Positions 1 through 10,146 of a stretch of DNA of 10,146 nucleotides are shown piece after piece (positions within the stretch are counted from its first letter, which is position 1; each line of letters opens with the position of its first letter). The stretch lies in contig CANRXD010000028.1 of the NCBI GenBank assembly GCA_947643685.1, positions 1 through 10,146 of the forward strand. The letters are read 5' to 3'. Position numbers and translations under genes: made by a program. The notes under the pieces are model-generated. The model had not been told where the DNA came from and made no database searches. It saw nothing but the letters and a program-made list of their open reading frames with translations. This stretch comes from an uncultured Clostridium sp. Its GTDB lineage: Bacteria; Bacillota; Clostridia; Lachnospirales; Lachnospiraceae.

Positions 1-1
1 G

Positions 2-358
2 GCCTTTATGGATGGAATCGACGGCACTCTGGGGGAGGCCGCTGAAAATCTGGGGGCCTCCCCGCTTTGCAGCTTTTTTGAGGTGACGCTTCCCCTAAGC
101 CTTCCCGTAATTTCAAAAGCGTTCCTTATTATTTTTATCTTTGCCTTCGGCGGATATGAACTGCCCCTTCTTCTGGGCTCCACTCTGCCAAAGGCCCTCC
201 CGGTGCAGACCTATCTTTCCTACTCCAGCCCGGACCTTTTACAAAGGCCTCTGGCCATGGCCATGAACGGCATCATGCTCCTTCTTTCCCTTGGCATGGC
301 CGCTCTTTACAGTCTGGTCATGAATCGGCTGAATAAAAAAATCGGAGGTGCGGAATGA
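2..358 (+). CDS. ABC importer permease, 5'-truncated
   Basis: This is the last 118 codons of an inner-membrane permease subunit; the reading frame is open to the left edge, so the true start lies outside the window. The visible part holds the EAA loop (GEAAENLGAS, followed by FFEVTLPLSLP), the cytoplasmic helix by which importer permeases contact the ATPase. A hydrophobic segment with FAFGGYELPLLLG follows, then a last membrane helix (NGIMLLLSLGMAALYSLVM) and a basic tail. The EAA loop marks an importer rather than an exporter. Its TGA stop overlaps the ATG of the next permease (ATGA), so the two are translationally coupled and probably form a heterodimeric pore. The family looks like the polyamine / ferric iron / thiamine permeases; the substrate is not determined. 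Confidence 0.9.
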   Translation, partial: AFMDGIDGTLGEAAENLGASPLCSFFEVTLPLSLPVISKAFLIIFIFAFGGYELPLLLGSTLPKALPVQTYLSYSSPDLLQRPLAMAMNGIMLLLSLGMAALYSLVMNRLNKKIGGAE

Positions 359-1164
359 AACGCCATCTATTTCTGCGGCTGGTCCTAAAAATCCTGCTCT
401 TTTGTATTTTCCTTCCCGTGGTCCTCTTAGGTTTATGGAGCGTCGCCGGACGCTGGCCATGGCCCGGACTGTTGCCAAAAACCTATACGCTCCGAACCAT
501 CCGGGAGCTCTTCTTTGGTTCTGCAAAGCTCCCGGACCTTCTCTTAAGCAGTATTCTCCTGGCCCTGTCTGTGGCTGTCCTCAGCACCATCATCGGCATA
601 ATGACGGCACGGGCCACAGAATTTTACCGGTTCCCCGGCCGGTCCCTGGTCCGGTTCGGCACGTTCCTGCCCCTTCTGGTTCCGGGAACGGTGTTTGCCA
701 TGGGAATCCAGGTCACTTTCATACGCCTGGGGCTTTCTGACACCATAGGCGGCATTCTCCTGGTACATATCATCGCGGCAGTCCCTTACACCATTACGAT
801 CATGACCGATGTGACCCGGGCTGTGGGAAATCATCTGGAGGAACAGGCCATGGTCCTTGGAGCCGGCCCCTACCGGGCCTTTTTTGAGATCACGCTGCCC
901 TCCCTGCTTCCGGGAATCCTGTCATCCATGAGCATGGGATTCATCCTGTCGTACAGCCAGTATTTTTCAACTTTAATGGTGGGCGGCGGGCGAATAAAGA
1001 CCATTGCCCTTATTATGGTTCCCTATATCCAGAGCGGCGACCGGGCCCTTTCTTCCACCTATGCCGTGGTTTTTGTTTTTTCGGCGCTTCTGGTATTTTT
1101 TGTCTTTGAAGGCCTGATTCAGCTGACCCGGAAAGGAGAGACCTGTCATGAAACTGACCCTTGA
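355..1164 (+). CDS. ABC importer permease, second subunit
   Basis: Complete 269-aa permease with about six membrane helices (roughly residues 10-30, 62-84, 101-123, 131-153, 187-207, 236-258). The EAA-type loop lies at residues 162-182 (EEQAMVLGAG then FFEITLP). The first position is Glu-Glu-Gln rather than Glu-Ala-Ala, but the essential Gly and the LP ending are present. The start is the ATG at 355, preceded by GGAGG at 344-348 with 6 nt spacing and overlapping the previous stop by 4 nt. It would pair with the upstream permease to form the membrane channel and use the downstream ATPase. Length and layout fit PotC/FbpB-like or thiamine-type permeases. The assignment as an importer permease is firm; the substrate is unknown because the binding protein is not in the window. 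Confidence 0.93.
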   Translation: MKRHLFLRLVLKILLFCIFLPVVLLGLWSVAGRWPWPGLLPKTYTLRTIRELFFGSAKLPDLLLSSILLALSVAVLSTIIGIMTARATEFYRFPGRSLVRFGTFLPLLVPGTVFAMGIQVTFIRLGLSDTIGGILLVHIIAAVPYTITIMTDVTRAVGNHLEEQAMVLGAGPYRAFFEITLPSLLPGILSSMSMGFILSYSQYFSTLMVGGGRIKTIALIMVPYIQSGDRALSSTYAVVFVFSALLVFFVFEGLIQLTRKGETCHETDP

Positions 1165-2173
1165 AAACCTGTCTGCCGGCTATGATGCAGGCCTGGTTCT
1201 AAAAACTTTATCTCTTCATGTCAATGAGGGGGAATTTTTATCCCTTTTGGGACCCTCCGGCTGCGGGAAAACTACCCTGCTGAAAACCATCGCCGGAATT
1301 CTTCCTGCAAGGAGCGGCTCCATTTTTCTGGATGGCCAGGACATCACAAATCTTCCCATCCATAAACGGGGAACCGTCGTCGTTTTCCAGGACATGCGCC
1401 TCTTCCCCCACCGGACTGTGGCTGAAAATGTGGCTTTTCCCCTAAAAATGCAGGGTGCCCCAAAAGCAGAACGGTTAAAAGAGGCCAGATGGTTTCTTGA
1501 AAAGGTGCAAATGGAGGGTTATGGGAGCAGAAAGCCGTTGGAACTTTCCGGCGGACAGAAACAGCGGGTGGCCCTGGCCCGTGCCCTGGCAGCCGGCCCA
1601 AAACTTCTTCTGCTGGATGAGCCCTTTTCCTCTCTGGACGAAAATCTCCGCGAGGACATGCGGAATCTGGTCCTGAAGCTTCAAAAGGAACTGAAAATGA
1701 CCGTGATTTTAGTGACCCATGACCGGGAAGAGGCTCTGGCCATGTCGGACCGGGTGGCCCTCATGTTCCATGGAGAGCTTCTTCAGATCGGAACTCCCCG
1801 GGAGGTCTACGACCACCCCTCCTGCCGTCTGGCGGCGGATTATTTTGGCAACTGTGTTTACATCCGCGGCCGGGTGGCCTCCGGCGTCTTCCTGGGGGGC
1901 GGCGTTTCCTGCCCTGCGCCGGTGGCCGACGGCGCCTGGGACATGATGCTGCGTCCCCAGGGCCTGGACATGGAAAAACCAGGCGGTTACCGCCTGGTGG
2001 TGGAGGCCGTCTCCTTTCGCGGAAACGATACTCTGCTCTCTCTTAGGGCAGAAGACGGTACCTTATGGAAAAAAGCTGTCACCCACCTAGTCACTTTAAA
2101 GCCGGGGGACTGCATCCGTGGGTCCGTATCTGTTGAAAATGCTGTTTTCTTTCCCTGCCAGGATTCTGTTTAA
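1148..2173 (+). CDS. ABC importer ATP-binding subunit with TOBE-like C-terminus
   Basis: Complete 341-aa ATPase that would power the two upstream permeases. All nucleotide-binding motifs are visible: Walker A GPSGCGKTT (35-43), Q-loop Gln81 in VVFQDMRLFP, signature LSGGQ (133-137), Walker B LLLLDEP (153-159), D-loop SSLD (161-164) and switch His191 in VTHD. Residues from about 236 to the end form an extra beta-rich part like the TOBE domain of PotA/MalK/FbpC ATPases, which often has a regulatory or substrate-sensing role. The start at ATG 1148 overlaps the permease gene by 17 nt and has GGAG at 1135-1138, 9 nt away. The TOBE-like extension supports uptake of a small ion or cationic molecule (polyamine, iron or thiamine type). 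The gene ends the operon on TAA, facing the efflux operon. Confidence 0.94.
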   Translation: MKLTLENLSAGYDAGLVLKTLSLHVNEGEFLSLLGPSGCGKTTLLKTIAGILPARSGSIFLDGQDITNLPIHKRGTVVVFQDMRLFPHRTVAENVAFPLKMQGAPKAERLKEARWFLEKVQMEGYGSRKPLELSGGQKQRVALARALAAGPKLLLLDEPFSSLDENLREDMRNLVLKLQKELKMTVILVTHDREEALAMSDRVALMFHGELLQIGTPREVYDHPSCRLAADYFGNCVYIRGRVASGVFLGGGVSCPAPVADGAWDMMLRPQGLDMEKPGGYRLVVEAVSFRGNDTLLSLRAEDGTLWKKAVTHLVTLKPGDCIRGSVSVENAVFFPCQDSV

Positions 2174-2213
2174 CCGGCGAAAAGCCAATCATGCCTGCGA
2201 TTCCAAGGTATTT
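2174..2213. other. Convergent 40-bp intergenic gap
   Basis: Only 40 bp separate the stop of the ABC ATPase gene from the stop of the opposing TolC-like gene. I looked for a bidirectional rho-independent terminator and found no clean GC-rich hairpin followed by a T-run on either strand. There is a short run of T (2211-2215) without a convincing stem before it. Transcripts from the two sides may therefore overlap at their 3' ends, or termination may use another mechanism. Confidence 0.5.
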
Positions 2214-3347
2214 TTATATCCGGCCTTTTACCTCCCATTGATAGGTTTCATATGCCTGGAGCAGATTCATGGCAGCAACCTCTTTTGCGGCTCTTTTGGC
2301 TGCATAGGAAGCTTCCCCCTGGAGATAGTCTGTGCGGCTTAAAAGTCCTGCCTGTTTCTTTCTTAAAAGAGCCTGATACTGGAGCTCTGCCGCCTCAAAG
2401 GCCTCCATGGCCGCCTCATACGCAAGCTTCGTATTCTGAAGCTTCTCATAGGAGGAGGTGATGCTTATGATCTCGTTTGCCTCTGCATCCTCCACCCGGC
2501 GGCTTCTTAGTTCCCTGGCATCGGTGCCTTTTACTTTGGAATTGAGCTCGCTCACATAAGTGCTGTCGTTGCTGACTGCGGTCTGTTTGTCGGACTCAAA
2601 ATCAATGGCTCCGATTGCCTCCATATCCGGTTCGGGAATGGCCCCTATCTGAATCTCTGTCTCTCCGGAAAGCCCCAGCATAGACAGCAGGCTTTCCTTT
2701 ATCTCATCCCGTTGTTCCTTTAAAGAAGCCAGGGTATGATTTACAGCAGTCAGGGAATTTTCTGCCGAAAGAACTTCCTCCTCCTTTACAAGCCCTGCCT
2801 GGTTTCTTGCTGCCGTTTCCTCACAGGATGCCTTTACATACTCCGCCTGCTTTTCCTGAGCCTTTATCTGTTCCTCCATCTGGTTATAGGAATTCATCAG
2901 GGTCTGGGCGGTCACAAGGCAGGCATCCACCTGCTTTTCATAGGCCTTTTCCTGGCTGTACGAGCTCATGCGCCTGATCTGGGTACCCACCTGGGACGCG
3001 GACACTTTTAGCTGCTTTGCACGTTCCTCATAAAATTCCTGCATTTGGGCGTTCCCGTCCTCCTCATAAGACTCCGCCATCTCTTCCATATATTTCTGCT
3101 CTTCCTGCAGAATATCCTGCATTTCCTTATAGGGAGCAATGCTGTTTTCTTGTTTTTCCTTCGTCTGTTTCAGAGTGAAATTTCCTGTCTTTAAAAGCTC
3201 TCTTAAGTCCTCATATTCCACCACGGCCCCTGCGGTATCGGAGTCCGCCTTAAGGCTTTCGGACTCAGCGGCAAAAGCCCGGCCAAAGGGAAGCAGACAC
3301 AGAGAAAGGGCCAGGGCCAGCTTAAATCCCCATTTCCATCCTTTCAT
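2214..3347 (-). CDS. Secreted TolC-like helical protein, copy B (no visible beta-barrel)
   Basis: 377-aa protein with an N-terminal signal peptide (basic start, hydrophobic core 9-20, likely cleavage near the AFAA at 24-27) and no lipobox. The rest is almost all charged coiled-coil-like helix. Two hairpin turns with the TolC-type AG motif are visible: NQAGLVKEEEVLSAENSL near 182-199 and KQAGLLSRTDYLQGE near 331-345, each followed by a long helix. The domain linker includes PEPD at 238-241. These match the two structural repeats of the outer membrane efflux protein (TolC) family, but the stretches that normally form outer-membrane beta-strands between helices are missing: RRVEDAE (283-289) runs almost directly into the next helix. 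The length is short against the 420-490 usual for TolC/OprM. It starts at ATG with AGGAGG (3354-3359), 6 nt spacing, 25 bp after copy A. It is probably part of the exit duct of the pump encoded upstream. Confidence 0.82.
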   Translation of the reverse strand: MKGWKWGFKLALALSLCLLPFGRAFAAESESLKADSDTAGAVVEYEDLRELLKTGNFTLKQTKEKQENSIAPYKEMQDILQEEQKYMEEMAESYEEDGNAQMQEFYEERAKQLKVSASQVGTQIRRMSSYSQEKAYEKQVDACLVTAQTLMNSYNQMEEQIKAQEKQAEYVKASCEETAARNQAGLVKEEEVLSAENSLTAVNHTLASLKEQRDEIKESLLSMLGLSGETEIQIGAIPEPDMEAIGAIDFESDKQTAVSNDSTYVSELNSKVKGTDARELRSRRVEDAEANEIISITSSYEKLQNTKLAYEAAMEAFEAAELQYQALLRKKQAGLLSRTDYLQGEASYAAKRAAKEVAAMNLLQAYETYQWEVKGRI

Positions 3348-3372
3348 TTTTTTCCTCCTTTCCGTCTGCCGC

Positions 3373-4530
3373 CTATGATGCGGATGCCAGTCCGTTCACA
3401 GCCCACTGATACTCCAGCTGCGCCTTTAAAAGATCCATCTTTTTTGTCTCTGCACTGACCTGGGCCGCCGTACAGCCTGATTCCTGGGTTTCATAGGTTT
3501 TCTTCGTAATGGTTCCGGCAGCCAGGCGGAGTCCGGCGGCCTCTAATTCCCTTTCCTGTATTTTCAGGCTTTCTGCCGCCTGCTCATAGGAGGCCTTGGC
3601 AAGCATCAGGCTGTTATATGTGTTTTTTACGCTGGAAGAGATTGTCTCTTTCTGATTTTCATAGGTCTTCTGCTGGGTCTCTCTCACCGTATCGTTTCTG
3701 GCATTTTCTATCCGCCGTCCGGTGATCTGAAGATTGTAATTGTTTTTTAACGCGGTCTTAATATCCGCTTCCACCTGAATCGCCTCCATGGACTCAAGAT
3801 CCGGTTCCGGTAATTTCCCGATTTCCACCTCATCCCCGTATTTCCATCCGAGGAGCACACAAAGACTCTTTTTTGCGGTCTCCAGACTGCTTTCTGCCGA
3901 CTGGAGAGACGCCCTGGCCGTGGTCACCGCCTCCTTTGCCGCCTCCTCGTCGGACTTGACAGCCATTCCGGCGGCTTTTCTGGTGAGGACTGATTCATAA
4001 GAACTCTCTGCCTGAATCACATTTTCCTTCAGGCTTTCCAGACTTTTCATCTGGCTCCAATAGGTAATCATCAGGCCCTGAGCCTGCTTTACGATCGTGG
4101 CCTCCTCCCGGTCATACCCCAGCCGAATGATATCCCCGTCATCCACGTTGTTATCCCCCTGTGTCCTTAAATTATCCGCCTGGATTTCACCGCTTAAAGC
4201 CTGGGATATCTGGCTGGCATAGTTTTCATCGTCATCGGACGGATAAGAAATCCGCTCCGAAACCTCATTGGCAGAATCGTAGTATTCCTCTGCGATCTTT
4301 AAACTGGTCTTTCCCCTGTAATCCTTGTAATCAAGCTCATTCTGCTGCACAGTGGTATTGTACTCATGGACCAGTTCGGCAATCTCATCAAACTCCAGTT
4401 TATTGTCCCGTAAGGACGCCCATTTTTCTTCCGTATAGGCAAACTCCGGGCTGGCCGCCAGGGCCTGCATGGGAGTAAGTCCCATGCAGACAGCTATCAT
4501 GCAAAACATTCCTTTTTTCCATCGAATCAT
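3373..4530 (-). CDS. Secreted TolC-like helical protein, copy A (no visible beta-barrel)
   Basis: 385-aa TolC-related protein. I chose the ATG at 4530 rather than the in-frame GTG at 4536: the ribosome binding site AGGAGG (4538-4543) is 7 nt from the ATG but only 1 nt from the GTG. A signal peptide covers about 1-25 (ends ALA-A), with no lipobox. The body is helical. Hairpin turns with AG are at RKAAGMAVKSD (near 184-194) and LAAGTITKKTYE (near 337-348), and the linker PEPD is at 241-244, as in copy B. Helix RRIENARND is followed after about 20 charged residues by the next long helix, so the beta-barrel insert of true TolC is not seen. The ribosome binding site overlaps the TAG of the RND gene, which couples the two. 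Copy A differs strongly from copy B, so they are old paralogues that may form a mixed channel. Confidence 0.82.
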   Translation of the reverse strand: MIRWKKGMFCMIAVCMGLTPMQALAASPEFAYTEEKWASLRDNKLEFDEIAELVHEYNTTVQQNELDYKDYRGKTSLKIAEEYYDSANEVSERISYPSDDDENYASQISQALSGEIQADNLRTQGDNNVDDGDIIRLGYDREEATIVKQAQGLMITYWSQMKSLESLKENVIQAESSYESVLTRKAAGMAVKSDEEAAKEAVTTARASLQSAESSLETAKKSLCVLLGWKYGDEVEIGKLPEPDLESMEAIQVEADIKTALKNNYNLQITGRRIENARNDTVRETQQKTYENQKETISSSVKNTYNSLMLAKASYEQAAESLKIQERELEAAGLRLAAGTITKKTYETQESGCTAAQVSAETKKMDLLKAQLEYQWAVNGLASAS

Positions 4531-4535
4531 CTGCA

Positions 4536-4543
4536 CACCTCCT
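4536..4543 (-). promoter_or_regulatory. Ribosome binding site that fixes the start of TolC-like copy A
   Basis: Read on the - strand this is AGGAGGTG. It overlaps the stop codon of the RND gene (4542-4544) and lies 7 nt before the ATG at 4530. An upstream in-frame GTG at 4536 falls inside the site and is too close to be used, so the protein should be annotated from 4530. Confidence 0.8.
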
Positions 4544-7500
4544 AAATATCCAAAACAGTCCGTTTCTTTCTTCCGTTCATCACCGCATAGTAAACGGGCA
4601 GGATAAACAGAGCCACCAGAATTCCTACGGAAAGTCCCCCGATGTTTACCACCGCAAGGCCCTGGGTGGTGGAACCGCTGCTTCCAAAGGCAAGCGCCAT
4701 CGGAATCATGGAGAGAATTGTGGTAAGGCTGGTCATGAGAATAGGGCGAAGCCTTGTGGCCCCAGCCTCAATTAACGCAGTCTGAAGGTCCATGGTCATC
4801 CGGTACTGGTTCACTGTGTCCACATATAAGATCCCATTATTTACAACCGTTCCCACCAGAATCAGGAATCCCAGAATGGAGGTCATGCTGATGGAGACTC
4901 CTGTGACCTTTAAAAGTCCGAAGGAGCCCACAAGACTGAAGGGAATCGTTGTCATGACCATGAAGGAAAACTTCGGAGATTCAAACTGGGCTGACATTAC
5001 AACAAACACCAGAAATACGGCGGTGGCGATGGCCTGGTACAGGGCGGAAAACTCGCTGGACATCATTCTGTCTCTCGTATTAACGCCCCGGGTAATGGTG
5101 GAGGAAAGCCTAGGTGCAATCACCTCACTGTCAATCTGACCCTTGGTATTCTCTCCCACATAGTCGGCCGTAATGGTGATCTGGTACTTTTTATCGGACT
5201 TCGAGATGGAGGACGGATTATCCCGGAACACAATATCTGCCACATCCATCAATGCCACGGATTTTCCGCTTCCCGTGGTAAGAATCACATCCTTAAGCTG
5301 AGAAACCGTCCGGTACTCCCCTTCCGGATATTCGGCGATCACATCAATTTCCTGACCGTCCACAATTAACGTGGTAAGCTCCATGCTGTCAAACATGCCC
5401 TTTACCTGGCTTCCGATCTGAGCGGCCGTAAGTCCCTCTGCGGAGGCCGCCACCTGATCCACCTTTACGGTGACCACCGGGGCCGTATTCTCCAGATCCG
5501 AATGAACATTCATCACATCCTCCCTGGCTGTCAGCTCCGCCACGATTTCGTCGCTGACTTCTTTGATTTCATCATAGTCTGTGCCGCTTAAAATCACCTC
5601 ATAGCCTCTGGAACGCCCCATAAAGCTCATGGAGCCGTCGGCGCTTACCTCAATCGTACAGTTTTCAATGTCAACCATCTGGTTTTCCCAGGAAGACACA
5701 ATCTCATCCTCTGTCATAGTCAAGCTGTCTTTCAGATATGCGGTCACAGAGCCGCTTCCGTTATTGTACCGGACCATATAGGAATCCACGTTTTCATCGC
5801 CGCTTACAATGGTTTCCACCTCCGTAAGGACAGCTTCCGCCTGCTCTGTAAGAAGTCCCGGCCTGGTCTCCACGCTGACGGAAATCTGACCTGTACTGTC
5901 CTGGGGCATGAGCTCGGTTTCCATGCCGCCCGCCATCTTTACTGTGGCAATGACCAGGAGCACAGAGCCTGCAAGCACCAGAACCTTATGCCTCAAGCAC
6001 ACTGGAAGCAGCCTCCGGTATGCCTCCTGGAGATGGACCATGGGCCTGGACATGAGAGCCCGTTCCGTTTCCTTTGGCTTATAAAGCATATAAGTAAGCG
6101 GCACAATGGAAATGGCCGAAAGTAAGGACGCCGTCATACAGAATATGATAGTATATCCCATAGGGCTGAACATCTGGCCGCTCATGCCATTTAAAAATAC
6201 CAGAGGAATAAATACCACACAGGTGGTCACTGTGGAGCCTAAAATGGACTGGACCACAATGTTTGTACCCTCAAGGGCAGCCCTGGCATATTCTAAAAGT
6301 CCCTTCTGGTCCATACCAGCCAGAGAACGGAAGCAGCTTTCCAACACAACGATGGAGTTATCCACCATCATTCCGACACCCAGGGTCAGAGCGCTCATGG
6401 TAATTATGTTTAAGGAAAAACCCGCCCGGGTCATTAAAATCAGAGATACCAGAATGGAAGTGGGAATGGAGCTTCCGACAATCAGGGATGCCTTAAAATC
6501 GCCGAAGAACATGAGAATAATGATCATGGAGATCCCCACCGCAAGGATCATGGTAAAAGCCACATCCTTAAGGGAGTTTAAAATAGTCTCCGAGGTATCC
6601 CTGGCAATCTCAATGGTAAGATCCGAATCCTCTGCCATCAGTTTTTCCACCGCCTCATGGACATCATCGGAACAGGCCATGGCTGAAGCTTCCTGCTTTT
6701 TTGTAATGGAAATGGAGATGGTCTCCTGTCCATTGTACCTGGAAATACCGCCCCGGTTTTTCTTGGCCTGGTATACGTCTGCAATATCTTCCAAATACAC
6801 GGTCTTTCCCGCCGCTGTGGTGATGGGGACCTGCAAAAGTTCTTCCAGAGTATTCGTATCTATGGAAGTGGTGACGGACAGCTCCAGATTTCCATACACC
6901 GCGTCACCGGACGGGTAAGAAAGATCGGCCGCGTTGATGGCGGAAGTAATCAGACTTGTGGTCACCTGATACTGCTTCATCCTCTCCGGCTTTAGCTCCA
7001 CCCGGATGTACTCGGAGGAACCTCCCATGGAGGACACCTCCGCCACAGTGGAAAGCTGCTCCAGGACCGGGACCACATTCTGGTCTACATAATCATATAA
7101 GTCCTCCTCCGTACTGTGGGAAATGGAGAGCATCAGGGTGGTTCCCGCATTCATGCTCATTTCCATGACACTCACATCGGCATCCTGGGGGAGTCCCCTA
7201 AGGCCGTCCAGGGTCTGCTTTAACTCATCATAGGCCTCGCTCATGTCTTCGTCATACCCATATTCCAGCATAATCATGGCAGAGCCCTCGCTGGAGGTGG
7301 AGGAAACACTCTCTACCCCCTCCAGGGTGGTGACGGCATCCTCGATCACCTGGGTTACCAGCTCATCCACATCCTCCGGACCTGCCCCCGAATACATGGC
7401 CATTACAATCAGCATGGGCTGGTCTGTATCCGGCATCTGCTCCAGGGTTGCATTGAATACAGAAGAAATACCAAATACCAGCAGACAGAGCAGGGTCATA

Positions 7501-7544
7501 AAAACCGTAACCGGCCGCTTCAGTACAAATTTCGTAACACCCAT
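4542..7544 (-). CDS. RND-family efflux pump (AcrB/HAE-like inner membrane transporter)
   Basis: Complete 1000-aa transporter, slightly shorter than AcrB (1049 aa). The topology is the classic RND layout: TM1 about 11-30, a large extracytoplasmic loop 31-328, TM2-TM6 in 329-487, TM7 about 519-538, a second loop 539-830, TM8-TM12 in 832-988. The N-terminus FVLKRPVTVFM and the RLRPILMTSLTTIL stretch (931-944) are family hallmarks. In TM4 the AcrB pair Asp407-Asp408 is Asp395-Asn396 (MMVDNSIVVLES), and in TM10 the place of AcrB Lys940 is Asn902 (VVNNGILYVD). Proton coupling must thus rest mainly on Asp395; Val-Asp-Asn is also common in RND proteins outside Proteobacteria. The pump would export lipophilic or amphiphilic compounds using proton motive force. 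It starts at ATG 7544, 3 nt after the fusion protein gene; GGGAGG (7553-7558) lies inside that gene's end. Confidence 0.95.
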   Translation of the reverse strand: MGVTKFVLKRPVTVFMTLLCLLVFGISSVFNATLEQMPDTDQPMLIVMAMYSGAGPEDVDELVTQVIEDAVTTLEGVESVSSTSSEGSAMIMLEYGYDEDMSEAYDELKQTLDGLRGLPQDADVSVMEMSMNAGTTLMLSISHSTEEDLYDYVDQNVVPVLEQLSTVAEVSSMGGSSEYIRVELKPERMKQYQVTTSLITSAINAADLSYPSGDAVYGNLELSVTTSIDTNTLEELLQVPITTAAGKTVYLEDIADVYQAKKNRGGISRYNGQETISISITKKQEASAMACSDDVHEAVEKLMAEDSDLTIEIARDTSETILNSLKDVAFTMILAVGISMIIILMFFGDFKASLIVGSSIPTSILVSLILMTRAGFSLNIITMSALTLGVGMMVDNSIVVLESCFRSLAGMDQKGLLEYARAALEGTNIVVQSILGSTVTTCVVFIPLVFLNGMSGQMFSPMGYTIIFCMTASLLSAISIVPLTYMLYKPKETERALMSRPMVHLQEAYRRLLPVCLRHKVLVLAGSVLLVIATVKMAGGMETELMPQDSTGQISVSVETRPGLLTEQAEAVLTEVETIVSGDENVDSYMVRYNNGSGSVTAYLKDSLTMTEDEIVSSWENQMVDIENCTIEVSADGSMSFMGRSRGYEVILSGTDYDEIKEVSDEIVAELTAREDVMNVHSDLENTAPVVTVKVDQVAASAEGLTAAQIGSQVKGMFDSMELTTLIVDGQEIDVIAEYPEGEYRTVSQLKDVILTTGSGKSVALMDVADIVFRDNPSSISKSDKKYQITITADYVGENTKGQIDSEVIAPRLSSTITRGVNTRDRMMSSEFSALYQAIATAVFLVFVVMSAQFESPKFSFMVMTTIPFSLVGSFGLLKVTGVSISMTSILGFLILVGTVVNNGILYVDTVNQYRMTMDLQTALIEAGATRLRPILMTSLTTILSMIPMALAFGSSGSTTQGLAVVNIGGLSVGILVALFILPVYYAVMNGRKKRTVLDI

Positions 7545-7547
7545 AGA

Positions 7548-8825
7548 CTAGCCCTCCCATTCTGCCGTTTCATCCACTGTCGGGGCCTTAACCTCCGATT
7601 CTTCCGGTATTCCGGATTCCGGTTCTTCAGTCCCGGTTCCTTCCGGCATTTCAGCCGCCGGATCCTTTGTTTCGGTTCCCTCCGGTGCTCCGGCCGCTGG
7701 TTTCTCCTGGCTGCCGCTTTCTTCGTTCAGACGGATTTTCGCGCCCTCATACAAATTGGAGCTCCATGTTTTAATCACCTGATCCTCAAAGGAAAGTCCC
7801 GAAAGCACTTCCGCATAGGTGTCATCGGTGAGCCCCACCTCGATGGCAGCAGTTTTTGCCGTTTGATCCTGATAGAGATATACAAAAGCATCCCCGCCGC
7901 TGTAATACACGGCGTCAATGGGAATCAGCATGGCATTCTCCGTTTTATTGGTCACCAGCTTAAGCTTTACCACGGTTCCCGTGGCCACCTCATCTGTATC
8001 CTCAAGCTGAGCTTCTATCTTAAACAGGCCTGTGGCCGAATCAACCATAGAATGAATGGCGCTTATGTGGGCTCCGTAGCTCTTCCCGTTCTTTTCCACA
8101 GTAAGCTCATCGCCCTCGCTTAAATTTTCCAGCATCCTTTGAGTCACATAAAACGTAATTTTCTTATTCCCCTCGCCGGAAATCACACAGAGCTGGCCAT
8201 TGGTTGTCACACGGTCATAAACCTCCGTATCGCAGCTCTCAACTCTTCCAGAAATGGGTGCCGTGACCGTACTGTACTCCACCTGCCTGTCATAGGCAAG
8301 CTTTGCCGAGTTATACTGGAGCCTTGCAGACTCCACATTATTGACATACTGTTCATATTCCTGCTCTGACAGATCGCCGCCGTCATAGAGGATTTTCATC
8401 CGGTTTAAGTTGCTCTGGGCCTGTGACAGAGATACGGAGGCAGAATCCAGAGAGTTTTTGGCCGACTCTACCTGTTCCGTATCAATTTGAAACAACACCT
8501 GCCCGGCTGTCACCATATCTCCCGCCTTCACCTTCACATCCGTCACATCGCCGGAGGCCTTTGCATACACGTAAACCACATCCGAAGATTCCAGCGTTCC
8601 TGTAAGCCCGGTGGTTACGTAAATATTTCCCGTTTCCGGCGTCACCACAGACACAACGTCAGCCCTGGCCTGCTGCTCACCACCCGGCATCCCGCCCATT
8701 TCCTTCCCGGGGCCGCCTTCTCTTATATTTCCGTCATTTTGCTTTTTAAGGAAAAACAGCACACAAAGCAGTGCAAATACCACACCCAGTATGCACAGCC
8801 ACAGCTTCCTTCCGTATTTTTTCAT
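7548..8825 (-). CDS. RND-pump membrane fusion protein (AcrA/HlyD-like adaptor)
   Basis: 425-aa adaptor that should link the RND pump to the TolC-like proteins. A basic start and one hydrophobic helix (9-26) anchor it; the ALLC at 18-21 is a poor lipobox, so it is probably membrane-anchored, not a lipoprotein. A Gly/Met-rich linker (37-52) follows. Next come a split lipoyl domain (about 85-113 and 184-214, with TAPISGRV), an alpha-helical hairpin between its halves (114-183), and beta-barrel and membrane-proximal domains to about 366. The hairpin tip carries Arg142, Leu146 and Ser153, spaced as in the R-x3-L-x6-S motif that AcrA and MacA use to dock TolC. The acidic C-terminal tail holds three 13-residue repeats (377-415). 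ATG 8825 has GAAGGGAG (8835-8842) 9 nt upstream. It is the first gene of the efflux operon. Confidence 0.94.
   Translation of the reverse strand: MKKYGRKLWLCILGVVFALLCVLFFLKKQNDGNIREGGPGKEMGGMPGGEQQARADVVSVVTPETGNIYVTTGLTGTLESSDVVYVYAKASGDVTDVKVKAGDMVTAGQVLFQIDTEQVESAKNSLDSASVSLSQAQSNLNRMKILYDGGDLSEQEYEQYVNNVESARLQYNSAKLAYDRQVEYSTVTAPISGRVESCDTEVYDRVTTNGQLCVISGEGNKKITFYVTQRMLENLSEGDELTVEKNGKSYGAHISAIHSMVDSATGLFKIEAQLEDTDEVATGTVVKLKLVTNKTENAMLIPIDAVYYSGGDAFVYLYQDQTAKTAAIEVGLTDDTYAEVLSGLSFEDQVIKTWSSNLYEGAKIRLNEESGSQEKPAAGAPEGTETKDPAAEMPEGTGTEEPESGIPEESEVKAPTVDETAEWEG
7581..7697 (-). repeat. Three tandem 13-residue (39-bp) repeats in the adaptor tail
   Basis: Residues 377-415 of the fusion protein read as three aligned units: AAGAPEGTETKDP, AAEMPEGTGTEEP and ESGIPEESEVKAP. 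Each has a PE at positions 5-6 and ends in Pro. The tail is acidic, rich in Pro, Glu, Gly and Thr, and should be disordered. Such a tail is absent from AcrA and is probably a recently expanded spacer or wall-interacting segment; its function is inferred only. Confidence 0.75.
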
Positions 8826-8862
8826 GATGTCATTCTCCCTTCAACAGTTCTTTTTTCCAGTT

Positions 8863-8868
8863 ACTATA
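8863..8868 (-). promoter_or_regulatory. Candidate -10 element of the efflux operon promoter
   Basis: On the - strand this reads TATAGT, two changes from TATAAT, in an A/T-rich setting. It lies 37 nt before the start codon of the fusion protein gene, giving a leader of about 30 nt. At 17 bp upstream the -35 position would read ACAGTT, a weak match that falls inside the tandem repeat block starting at 8879. That is the pattern of an activator-dependent promoter. The call is by eye only. Confidence 0.45.
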
Positions 8869-8878
8869 AAAATAAAAT

Positions 8879-8922
8879 GTGAAAAAACTGTGAGGAATTT
8901 ATCAGGATTCTGTGAGGATTCG
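8879..8922. promoter_or_regulatory. Four tandem 11-bp repeats, likely response regulator binding sites
   Basis: Four consecutive 11-bp units start at 8879, 8890, 8901 and 8912: GTGAAAAAACT, GTGAGGAATTT, ATCAGGATTCT, GTGAGGATTCG. Units 2 and 4 share GTGAGGA, unit 3 has ATCAGGA, and unit 1 is the most diverged. An exact 11-bp period places the sites on one face of the helix, as in the PhoB/OmpR-type boxes bound by tandem dimers. The block sits 10 bp from the efflux -10 (8863-8868) and 11 bp from the regulator's own -10 (8934-8939), thus replacing the -35 on both sides. This fits binding by the regulator encoded from 8974 and control of both operons. The repeats are seen directly; the binding protein is inferred. 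Confidence 0.68.
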
Positions 8923-8930
8923 TTTTTGTA

Positions 8931-8939
8931 TGGTATACT
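8931..8939 (+). promoter_or_regulatory. Extended -10 element of the response regulator promoter
   Basis: TGGTATACT is an extended -10 (TGn followed by TATACT at 8934-8939). At 17-bp spacing the -35 position would be TGTGAG, a poor match to TTGACA but inside the fourth 11-bp repeat. The predicted transcript starts near 8946, leaving a leader of about 28 nt with a strong AGGAGG site. The arrangement suggests positive autoregulation by the encoded regulator. Confidence 0.55.
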
Positions 8940-8973
8940 ATGCTCAAGGAAAAAGAGAAAAGGAGGAGGAGCC

Positions 8974-9660
8974 TTGGCCCGTTTACTGATTGTTGATGAT
9001 GATGCCAGACTCAGGAAACTTGTACAGACCTATGCCGGACTGGAGGCCCATGAATGCGTGGAGGCAGGAAACGGCAGACAGGCACTGGAACTTGTCAGTT
9101 CCCAAAGCTTTGATCTGATCGTTCTGGATGTGATGATGCCGGAGCAGGACGGCTTTGAGGTGCTGGAGGAGATACGGAAAACCAGTCAGGTTCCAGTCAT
9201 CATGCTGACCGCAAGAAGTGAGGAAGAAGATAAGCTTCTGGGATTTCGCCTCGGCGGGGATGACTATGTTTCCAAACCCTTCAGCCCCAGAGAGCTGATG
9301 GCGCGGATTCAGGCTATTTTAAAAAGGAATCAAAAAGTGCCGGACGAAGTGATCCAGTTTGGCGGCCTCTCCATTTTCCCGGCCTCACGGACCGTAACCC
9401 TTAACGGAAAGCAGTTAAATCTTCCGCCAAAGGAATTTGATCTTTTATCAAACATGGCACAAAACGAGCGCATTGTGTTCAGCCGGGAACGTCTTTTGGA
9501 GCTGGTGTGGGGCTACTGTTATTATGGAGACGGGCGGATCGTGGACACCCATGTGAAATCGCTCCGTGACCATCTCGGACCGTATCGCACAGTGATTCAG
9601 ACTGTCTGGGGAGTGGGGTATAAATTTGAATACAACAAAGAATCCATTAAAGATAATTAG
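8974..9660 (+). CDS. OmpR/PhoB-family response regulator (TTG start)
   Basis: 228-aa DNA-binding response regulator. The frame is open from further upstream, but I place the start at TTG 8974: AGGAGG (8961-8966) lies 7 nt before it and the protein then begins MARLLIVDDD, the usual receiver start. The receiver domain (1-118) has the acidic pocket Asp8-Asp9-Asp10, phospho-acceptor Asp52 in LDVMMP, Thr79 in MLTAR and Lys101 in SKPF. The winged-helix output domain (about 127-220) has PPKEFDLL, LLELVWGY, recognition helix RIVDTHVKSLR (188-198) and the terminal hairpin VWGVGYKFE. It is divergent to the efflux operon with 148 bp between start codons and is followed by its kinase. It most likely binds the 11-bp repeats in that spacer and controls the pump in response to the kinase. 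Confidence 0.93.
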   Translation: MARLLIVDDDARLRKLVQTYAGLEAHECVEAGNGRQALELVSSQSFDLIVLDVMMPEQDGFEVLEEIRKTSQVPVIMLTARSEEEDKLLGFRLGGDDYVSKPFSPRELMARIQAILKRNQKVPDEVIQFGGLSIFPASRTVTLNGKQLNLPPKEFDLLSNMAQNERIVFSRERLLELVWGYCYYGDGRIVDTHVKSLRDHLGPYRTVIQTVWGVGYKFEYNKESIKDN

Positions 9661-9682
9661 AAATATTTTCCCACGTTCAAAA

Positions 9683-10146
9683 ATGGTCTTCCAGCTATGG
9701 CTCATGATGATGGGGCTGGTTTTATTTACCATTTCTTTCGTGTGGATCGTTCAGATCTCCTTGTTTGAGAGGAATTATAATGAATCGGTCCTTACAGACA
9801 CCTGGAGCCGGTTAGAACCTGTCATGGACCAGCTGGAAAACGGGGAATTTTCTGATGATGATCAGTTTCTCCCTTTCTTAAGCCGGATCCTGGACGGAAG
9901 ACTTCTTCTTCTGGACTCCGATGGAACGCCGAAGGCCTTTTATTCCTACGGATACCCGGCCAGTCTTTCCTCTGATTCGCCGGAATACCAGATCTGGGAA
10001 TTTCTAAAGGACTCTGGTTATCAGGACGCCATTTCAGACCGGGAGTCCTTTCAGCATTCTCAGATTTTTAAAGGATGGGCTGTGAGTGTGATATTGGGAA
10101 TCCCCATCCGCTACAACGGAAAAAACTGTTATCTGATCCTCCACCA
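9683..10146 (+). CDS. Sensor histidine kinase, N-terminal part (truncated by window end)
   Basis: About 154 codons are visible and the frame runs off the right edge. One membrane helix (about residues 4-28, WLMMMGLVLFTISFVWIVQI) is followed by an extracytoplasmic sensor region with acidic segments (ENGEFSDDDQFLPFL) and a PAS/Cache-like look (GRLLLLDSDGTPKAF). The kinase core with the HAMP, His box and ATPase domain lies beyond the window, so the call rests on its place directly after a response regulator and on its topology. The start is uncertain. ATG 9683 has no visible ribosome binding site, and the frame is open upstream with a basic stretch (IIRNIFPRSK) that looks like a real cytoplasmic N-terminus. 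TTG at 9626, overlapping the regulator gene by 35 nt, is one alternative start. The sensed signal is unknown. Confidence 0.8.
   Translation, partial: MVFQLWLMMMGLVLFTISFVWIVQISLFERNYNESVLTDTWSRLEPVMDQLENGEFSDDDQFLPFLSRILDGRLLLLDSDGTPKAFYSYGYPASLSSDSPEYQIWEFLKDSGYQDAISDRESFQHSQIFKGWAVSVILGIPIRYNGKNCYLILH

Follow-up and report, generated by a model that had tools for sequence, protein, structure and literature searches.

The window analysed here, a 10,146-nucleotide stretch of an uncultured Clostridium sp. of the family Lachnospiraceae (GenBank assembly GCA_947643685.1, contig CANRXD010000028.1, positions 1 to 10,146), carries a resistance-nodulation-division (RND) tripartite-pump operon in the order adaptor, RND pump, TolC-like copy A, TolC-like copy B. 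According to their predicted models, copies A and B are TolC-like helical proteins without a beta-barrel, and the host appears from gene searches to be a monoderm Lachnospiraceae-type Clostridium. The operon probably specifies a tripartite pump whose wall-spanning, barrel-less duct uses the two paralogues in this single-membrane cell.

The four genes are separated by gaps of 3, 11 and 25 bases, and the 3 bases between adaptor and AcrB-family transporter give the adjacency that marks an RND tripartite pump. Both TolC-like open reading frames (ORFs) lie where an earlier reading of the letters, made without database searches (the sequence-only reading), had placed them. The operon and its principal features are as follows.

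7548..8825, minus strand: membrane fusion (adaptor) protein, 425 amino acids, with an N-terminal hydrophobic segment (by eye); TIGR01730 RND_mfp, 184.8 bits (cut-off 94.9)
8349..8417, minus strand: adaptor alpha-hairpin tip with the RLS motif R-x3-L-x5-[IL]-S, conserved in aligned adaptors
4542..7544, minus strand: RND (AcrB-family) transporter, 1000 amino acids; ACR_tran, 628.5 bits over residues 4-989
3373..4530, minus strand: copy A, TolC-like, 385 amino acids from ATG (387 from the GTG at 4536); predicted helical, without barrel
4138..4323, minus strand: copy A repeat-1 helical insert, residues 72-133 (387 numbering); predicted helices 78-95 and 106-128; 32% charged; grand average of hydropathicity (GRAVY) -1.22
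3967..3972, minus strand: copy A hairpin tip 1 (AG); G in 48/48 A rows
3514..3519, minus strand: copy A hairpin tip 2 (AG); G in 48/48 A rows
2214..3347, minus strand: copy B, TolC-like paralogue, 377 amino acids; predicted helical, without barrel
2961..3146, minus strand: copy B repeat-1 helical insert, residues 68-129; predicted helices 57-97 and 100-127; 32% charged; GRAVY -1.16
2793..2798, minus strand: copy B hairpin tip 1 (AG); G in 48/48 B rows
2346..2351, minus strand: copy B hairpin tip 2 (AG); G in 48/48 B rows

Predicted structures of copies A and B

AlphaFold2 (AF2) monomer models of the two copies were built from alignments in which the window copy is joined by 102 and 59 sequences, respectively, out of 120 listed per copy (124 and 1025 found). 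Both models contain strands of only 2-3 residues and no barrel, and the best 44 Foldseek PDB rows of each are TolC-family channels. The two-repeat helical TolC fold is thus present in both copies by predicted model and fold comparison, whereas the four strands per protomer that characterize the barrel of the TolC/OMF family are missing from both. These models agree with the sequence-only reading, which had proposed a lost outer-membrane barrel on a retained two-repeat helical layout; amphipathic strands forming a barrel, the structural result it had named as contrary, were looked for and none was found.

The two repeats have not changed equally. Repeat 2 is 60-72 residues shorter than in the controls, with a loop-to-tip spacing of 74 in copy A and 72 in copy B vs 144, 134 and 134 in TolC, CusC and MdtP. 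In repeat 1 the spacing is 129 and 128 vs 132, 132 and 147, and a helical insert, about 62 residues long and 32% charged in both copies, takes the place of the TolC strands. The short charged linkers that had been suggested for each repeat are therefore found in repeat 2, but models and spacing rule them out for repeat 1. The tip-to-repeat spacing of 72-75 residues is common to A, B and TolC.

Both proteins are shorter than typical TolC, as had been noted (385 and 377 amino acids vs 493 for E. coli TolC, 457 for CusC and 488 for MdtP). The sequence-only reading had also asked whether barrel-less members cluster in monoderm Clostridia, and this is borne out for length only: across 177 survey and related rows, repeat 2 never reaches the length seen in the controls (at most 108 vs 134). 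Five clostridial TolC-like ORFs (L116, L117, L119, L134 and L145) are 474-525 amino acids long, with a repeat 1 of 199-245 residues vs a median of 113.5 and a repeat 2 that stays at 93; an additional domain may sit at the outer end of these proteins.

Copies A and B share 26% identity (E 7e-23). Copy A passes the Pfam family OEP (PF02321) with 47 bits (cut-off 22), and the protein-cluster entry for copy B is listed with PF02321.24. Both fall below the 225-bit cut-off of the type I secretion TolC subfamily TIGR01844 (31.5 bits for A, 19.8 for B), and profile searches of solved-structure sequences returned weak matches only, including TolC and EmrA. Copy A is read here from the ATG at 4530, which is preceded by an AGGAGG-type site; the GTG at 4536 given by the ORF tool lies two codons earlier. 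Its two nearest relatives from elsewhere are 84% identical and likewise 385 amino acids long.

The short motifs described earlier are all in place, namely the PEPD linker, RRVEDAE (copy B 283-289) and the AG tips at 184-185 and 333-334 of copy B and at 187-188 and 338-339 of copy A counted from ATG (189-190 and 340-341 in the 387 numbering). A signal peptide in both proteins is likewise indicated by a simple heuristic: across 48 related loci, a hydrophobic N-terminus is found in 46/48 A and 47/48 B rows and an AxA-like site in all, with a lipobox-like pattern in 4 of 48 A and 1 of 48 B rows.

Docking motifs, host envelope and flanking genes

The tip glycines of both hairpins are kept in every A and every B row (48/48 each). 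When the adaptor tip is aligned with AcrA, R is conserved in 36/36, L in 36/36 and S in 35/36 adaptors, the window's included. With the spacing taken from this alignment, the strict RLS pattern occurs in every whole adaptor of the L020-L067 loci (39/39) and in about 2% of shuffled sequences. The RLS motif docks adaptors on TolC. From the conservation of the RLS tip in the adaptor and of the two tips in the TolC-like proteins, we infer that the helical duct proposed by the sequence-only reading docks on the adaptor. The motif and its conservation are named in the legend of Fig. 35 of PMC8277102.

The RND protein aligns with AcrB at 22.5% identity with no gap over 9 residues. Among the positions that we take to be the proton-relay residues of AcrB (D407, D408, K940, R971 and T978), D407, R971 and T978 are kept in the window, and N stands at D408 and K940 in the window and in aligned relatives alike; proton coupling may therefore differ from that of AcrB.

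The home genome is a 2.05 Mb draft, 60% complete, in 368 contigs. Omp85 was found neither in the home genome together with 60 relatives (0/61) nor in 15 genomes bearing an A/B pair, of which 13 have the RND operon, 1 a MacAB-type operon and 1 the pair alone (completeness not told), and in a sample of 393 genomes of the class no match exceeded the cut-off, with 1 sub-threshold match at E<=1e-3. LpxC was likewise found in 0/61. Positive controls gave matches in 7 and 4 of 14 genomes. On these searches a diderm host was rejected: the lipopolysaccharide and BamA genes that the sequence-only reading had named as contrary evidence were sought through LpxC and Omp85 and not found, and the single-membrane cell it had assumed is supported.

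Divergently upstream of the adaptor lie the genes of a probable regulatory pair.

8974..9660, plus strand: OmpR-type response regulator (Response_reg and Trans_reg_C); TTG start at 8974 inferred, listed ORF starting at 8791
9626..10144, plus strand: likely histidine kinase partner, start only, an open ORF running off the window; named by position

The response regulator is the pump's probable regulator; homologues stand divergently upstream of the adaptor in 23/48 related loci, and a kinase-like homologous stretch follows in 9/48. Promoter scanning gave matches at chance level and terminator scanning 11 vs 7.4 expected. At the other end, positions 2-2173 hold convergent ATP-binding cassette (ABC) import genes, two binding-protein-dependent permeases and an ATPase, whose best profile matches, below cut-off, are 2-aminoethylphosphonate and spermidine/putrescine transporters; they appear unrelated to the pump.

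Pairing of A and B across Clostridia

The 48 related loci were obtained by scanning genome contigs with copy A patterns. Judged by their titles they come from Clostridia, predominantly Lachnospiraceae such as Enterocloster, [Clostridium] symbiosum and C. fessum; the exceptions are a few whose title says no more than 'bacterium' and one misfiled locus, L059. Two whole TolC-like genes are present in 46 of these loci, the exceptions being L052, where copy A is broken, and L020, which is cut by the contig end. The genes lie less than 600 bases apart in 45 loci (median gap 13) and 1.8 kb apart in L048. Partners of the pair are an RND gene in 37 loci and a HlyD-ABC-MacB operon in 4 (L049-L051 and L055; HlyD-ATPase-MacB, Pfam-tested), with neither in the sequence examined in 6 (L054, L057, L059, L060, L061 and L064). 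This last count is qualified by L059, a contig of only 3 kb that is near-identical to L061. The filing of L059 under Candidatus Gastranaerophilales would make a diderm the owner of a pair; its 3,020 bases are 99.57% identical to the Enterocloster contig L061, which points to a likely binning error.

Two further observations concern these loci. In L054, L057, L060, L061 and L064 the pump-less pair, at about 8800-11350, forms a third arrangement, and in L054 and L064 it stands behind a TetR_N gene. In L052 (Clostridia bacterium UC5.1-1D2) adaptor, RND gene and copy A are each in pieces, through draft errors or decay.

Beyond the immediate relatives, OEP matches occur in at most 112 of 393 genomes of the class (107 over the cut-off), and the first 60 distinct genomes of the 112 by E-value were surveyed. 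The figure of 112 is an upper one because 7 of the 60 surveyed loci hold no whole TolC-like ORF: L068 is Bacteroidota-like by eye, L150 and L155 are adaptors, and L100, L112, L113 and L126 are fragments. The remaining 53 loci comprise 22 tandem pairs and 31 single genes, with 76 ORFs of median length 387 amino acids. L068 itself (G147:C79) holds a 511-amino-acid OEP match over nearly the whole profile in a Clostridia genome and is likely contamination. The home genome has at least two further TolC-like loci (L159, G000:C293; L160, G000:C22), one of them behind a partial RND gene.

Phylogenetic analyses of 102 and 48 hand-picked rows bear on the origin of the pairing. In the 102-row tree, 46 Lachnospiraceae-type rows separate from the other 56 (support 100), 22 A rows cluster with one swapped gene of L162 (99), and the first and second genes of the survey pairs group apart, with single genes among or beside the first genes. 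In the 48-row tree A (97) and B (92) each form one cluster. A single ancient duplication behind all pairs was rejected by approximately unbiased (AU) tests, which exclude a grouping of A with the survey first genes (p 5.35e-05) and with the survey second genes (p 4.97e-05); the groups follow gene order, were set after the 102-row tree had been seen and rest on a quick tree that leaves out L162, whose order looks swapped. These rejections imply at least two duplications, and hence at least two origins of the pairing, provided that the tree is not misled by gene conversion or long branches. L162 (G001:C35) lies in the one same-genus genome searched, and it is the order of its A-like and B-like genes that looks swapped in the tree.

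A proposed wall-spanning duct and its alternatives

The findings are most readily combined in the following mechanism. The RND pump would pass its substrate into the adaptor ring. Such adaptor rings are hexameric. Docking would take place between the RLS hairpin tips of the ring and the AG tips of the helical TolC-like duct. The duct presumably stands in the wall, and with no outer membrane to cross it can do without a barrel. Repeat 2 would turn back where TolC would enter the membrane, while the charged helical insert of repeat 1 would crown the outer end of the duct. A and B are ancient, separately conserved paralogues that would form the duct jointly; mixed A/B trimers seem the most likely arrangement, although here the balance is about even. 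In its widest form, a proposal that we put forward tentatively and with slightly less than even confidence, single-membrane Clostridia would have repeatedly evolved a two-subunit, membrane-free mixed helical duct on a common adaptor ring, helix-crowned and serving both RND and MacAB-type pumps across the wall.

Several observations weigh against this account. A direct Pfam scan of copy B gave nothing at E<=0.01, and its NCBIfam matches are weak and below cut-off. The AF2 predictions are of monomers and deviate from TolC by a root-mean-square of 6-7 A. Loci with B only could not appear in a scan that used copy A patterns, and in the 102-row tree the B rows form three clusters round an unresolved fork rather than one. 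Copy A matches occur in only 5 of the 61 genomes, one of them marginal, so the system is patchy, and six pairs stand with no adaptor or pump in the sequence examined. Outside L020-L067 the strict RLS pattern is found in only 14 of 33 adaptors accompanied by a TolC-like gene, a group to which L161 and L162 from the same family as the window belong (and in 0/2 adaptors without one), so the motif is not universal. Finally, 31 of the 53 surveyed clostridial loci have a single TolC-like gene, so the pair is not needed everywhere.

This last count, together with the pairs that have no transporter in view, also favours an alternative in which A and B form separate homotrimers, either for different partners or conditions or stacked to lengthen the duct. 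Homotrimers can suffice because single-gene systems exist, and both copies keep both adaptor-facing tip glycines. Alternative homotrimers would, however, be expected to separate in some genomes, whereas whole A and B genes are retained within 600 bases in 45/48 loci, across RND and MacAB-type operons and in pairings that evolved at least twice. We therefore regard separate homotrimers as rather unlikely, although they fare best among the alternatives.

A second alternative places the TolC-like proteins in a protein surface layer (S-layer) that replaces the outer membrane, as proposed for C. difficile and others by Stubenrauch et al. 2022 (PLoS Biol, PMC8809574), who cite an association with the C. 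difficile secretome and S-layer. SLH domains exceed the family cut-off in 13 of the 15 pair-bearing genomes (a set that does not include the home genome), but several strong matches occur in only 5 (G454, G455, G456, G459 and G462), with one or two matches of best E 7e-7 to 4e-4 in 8 and none in 2 (G450 and G461). CW_binding_2 exceeds its cut-off in 0/15, with 2 weak matches; S-layers with other anchors lie outside these searches. Judged by these domain matches, support for the S-layer idea is mixed, an S-layer as a general requirement is not supported, and the proposal seems improbable for the present proteins.

It is equally hard to credit that there is no continuous duct, the RND pump and adaptor working by themselves, in the way supposed for monoderm MacAB-like pumps, and the TolC-like proteins serving as caps, as scaffolds or in some other role in the wall. 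For monoderm MacAB-like systems the text compared of PMC5985334 describes adaptors but no TolC-like duct, and a Pfam scan of A and B shows no wall-binding domain; against this, the conserved RLS tip, the TolC tip glycines and the tip-to-repeat spacing of 72-75 residues indicate a retained docking geometry. That the proteins are ordinary outer-membrane TolC of a diderm host, misread, can draw on their TolC-family homology and on a home genome only 60% complete, but is extremely improbable given models without a barrel and the absence of Omp85 and LpxC from the searched genomes, with positive controls detected.

The wall-spanning duct proposed here has precedents. Stubenrauch et al. found that TolC-like proteins are common throughout monoderm Firmicutes and that many of them belong to tripartite operons, in hosts without BAM, with a C. 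difficile model (Phyre2) that lacks part of the barrel domain and a proposed S-layer housing; the S6 Fig legend records two TolC-like proteins in 1 of 12 operons (L. gingivalis). Copies A and B resemble those proteins in their signal peptides, BamA-less single-membrane Firmicutes hosts, adaptor/transporter operons and barrel-domain gap. They differ, as far as the compared text goes, in that one modelled C. difficile protein and an S-layer are replaced by AF2 models of two paralogues with unequal repeats, by A/B pairing with RND and MacAB-type pumps from at least two origins, and by several strong S-layer anchor matches in only 5/15 pair-bearing genomes. Dred_3141 (PF02321) of the Desulfotomaculum reducens surfaceome is likewise a TolC-family protein of a Gram-positive, detected there at the surface; the text compared (PMC4137172) takes up neither barrel nor pairing.

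With TolC, OprM and CusC the copies share the two-repeat helical fold, hairpin tips, linker spacing and operon partners, but unlike them they have no barrel strands, a shortened repeat 2, a helical insert in repeat 1 and two subunit genes. The system is like AcrAB-TolC pumps in its AcrB-family RND protein and its AcrA-like adaptor with an RLS tip, and unlike them in its monoderm host and in the N at the D408 and K940 positions. The monoderm MacAB-like systems YknWXYZ and Spr0693-0695 also have adaptor-bearing pumps and one membrane, but are described, in the text compared of PMC5985334 and PMC8277102, without a TolC-like duct, whereas the HlyD-ATPase-MacB operons of our relatives carry the A/B pair.

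The sequence-only reading had supposed a little-described form of tripartite pump. Since PMC8809574 and the D. reducens protein already give a barrel-less monoderm TolC in outline, that description calls for qualification. A literature search that covered few subscription papers and no preprints listed, among titles and abstract openings, no paper on paired barrel-less TolC; nor did it bring up an A/B pair conserved in operons of RND and MacAB type, a repeated origin of such a pair or a helical replacement of the first strand hairpin only. The fixed pairing of barrel-less TolC-like proteins looks like a new twist on known proteins.

TolC ducts are usually regarded as outer-membrane devices, and a lineage that has kept the docking machinery but not the membrane domain suggests that such a duct has its uses even where there is no outer membrane. 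The interest of the system would be higher if the mixed duct proves true, and recurrent pairing makes a hetero-oligomeric duct testable with purified proteins; a barrel-free system would also serve for studying how adaptors open the duct. For annotation, a Pfam family named 'outer membrane efflux protein' is present in cells that have no outer membrane. For the organisms themselves, the finding is relevant to the ways in which gut Clostridia might rid themselves of drugs and bile compounds.
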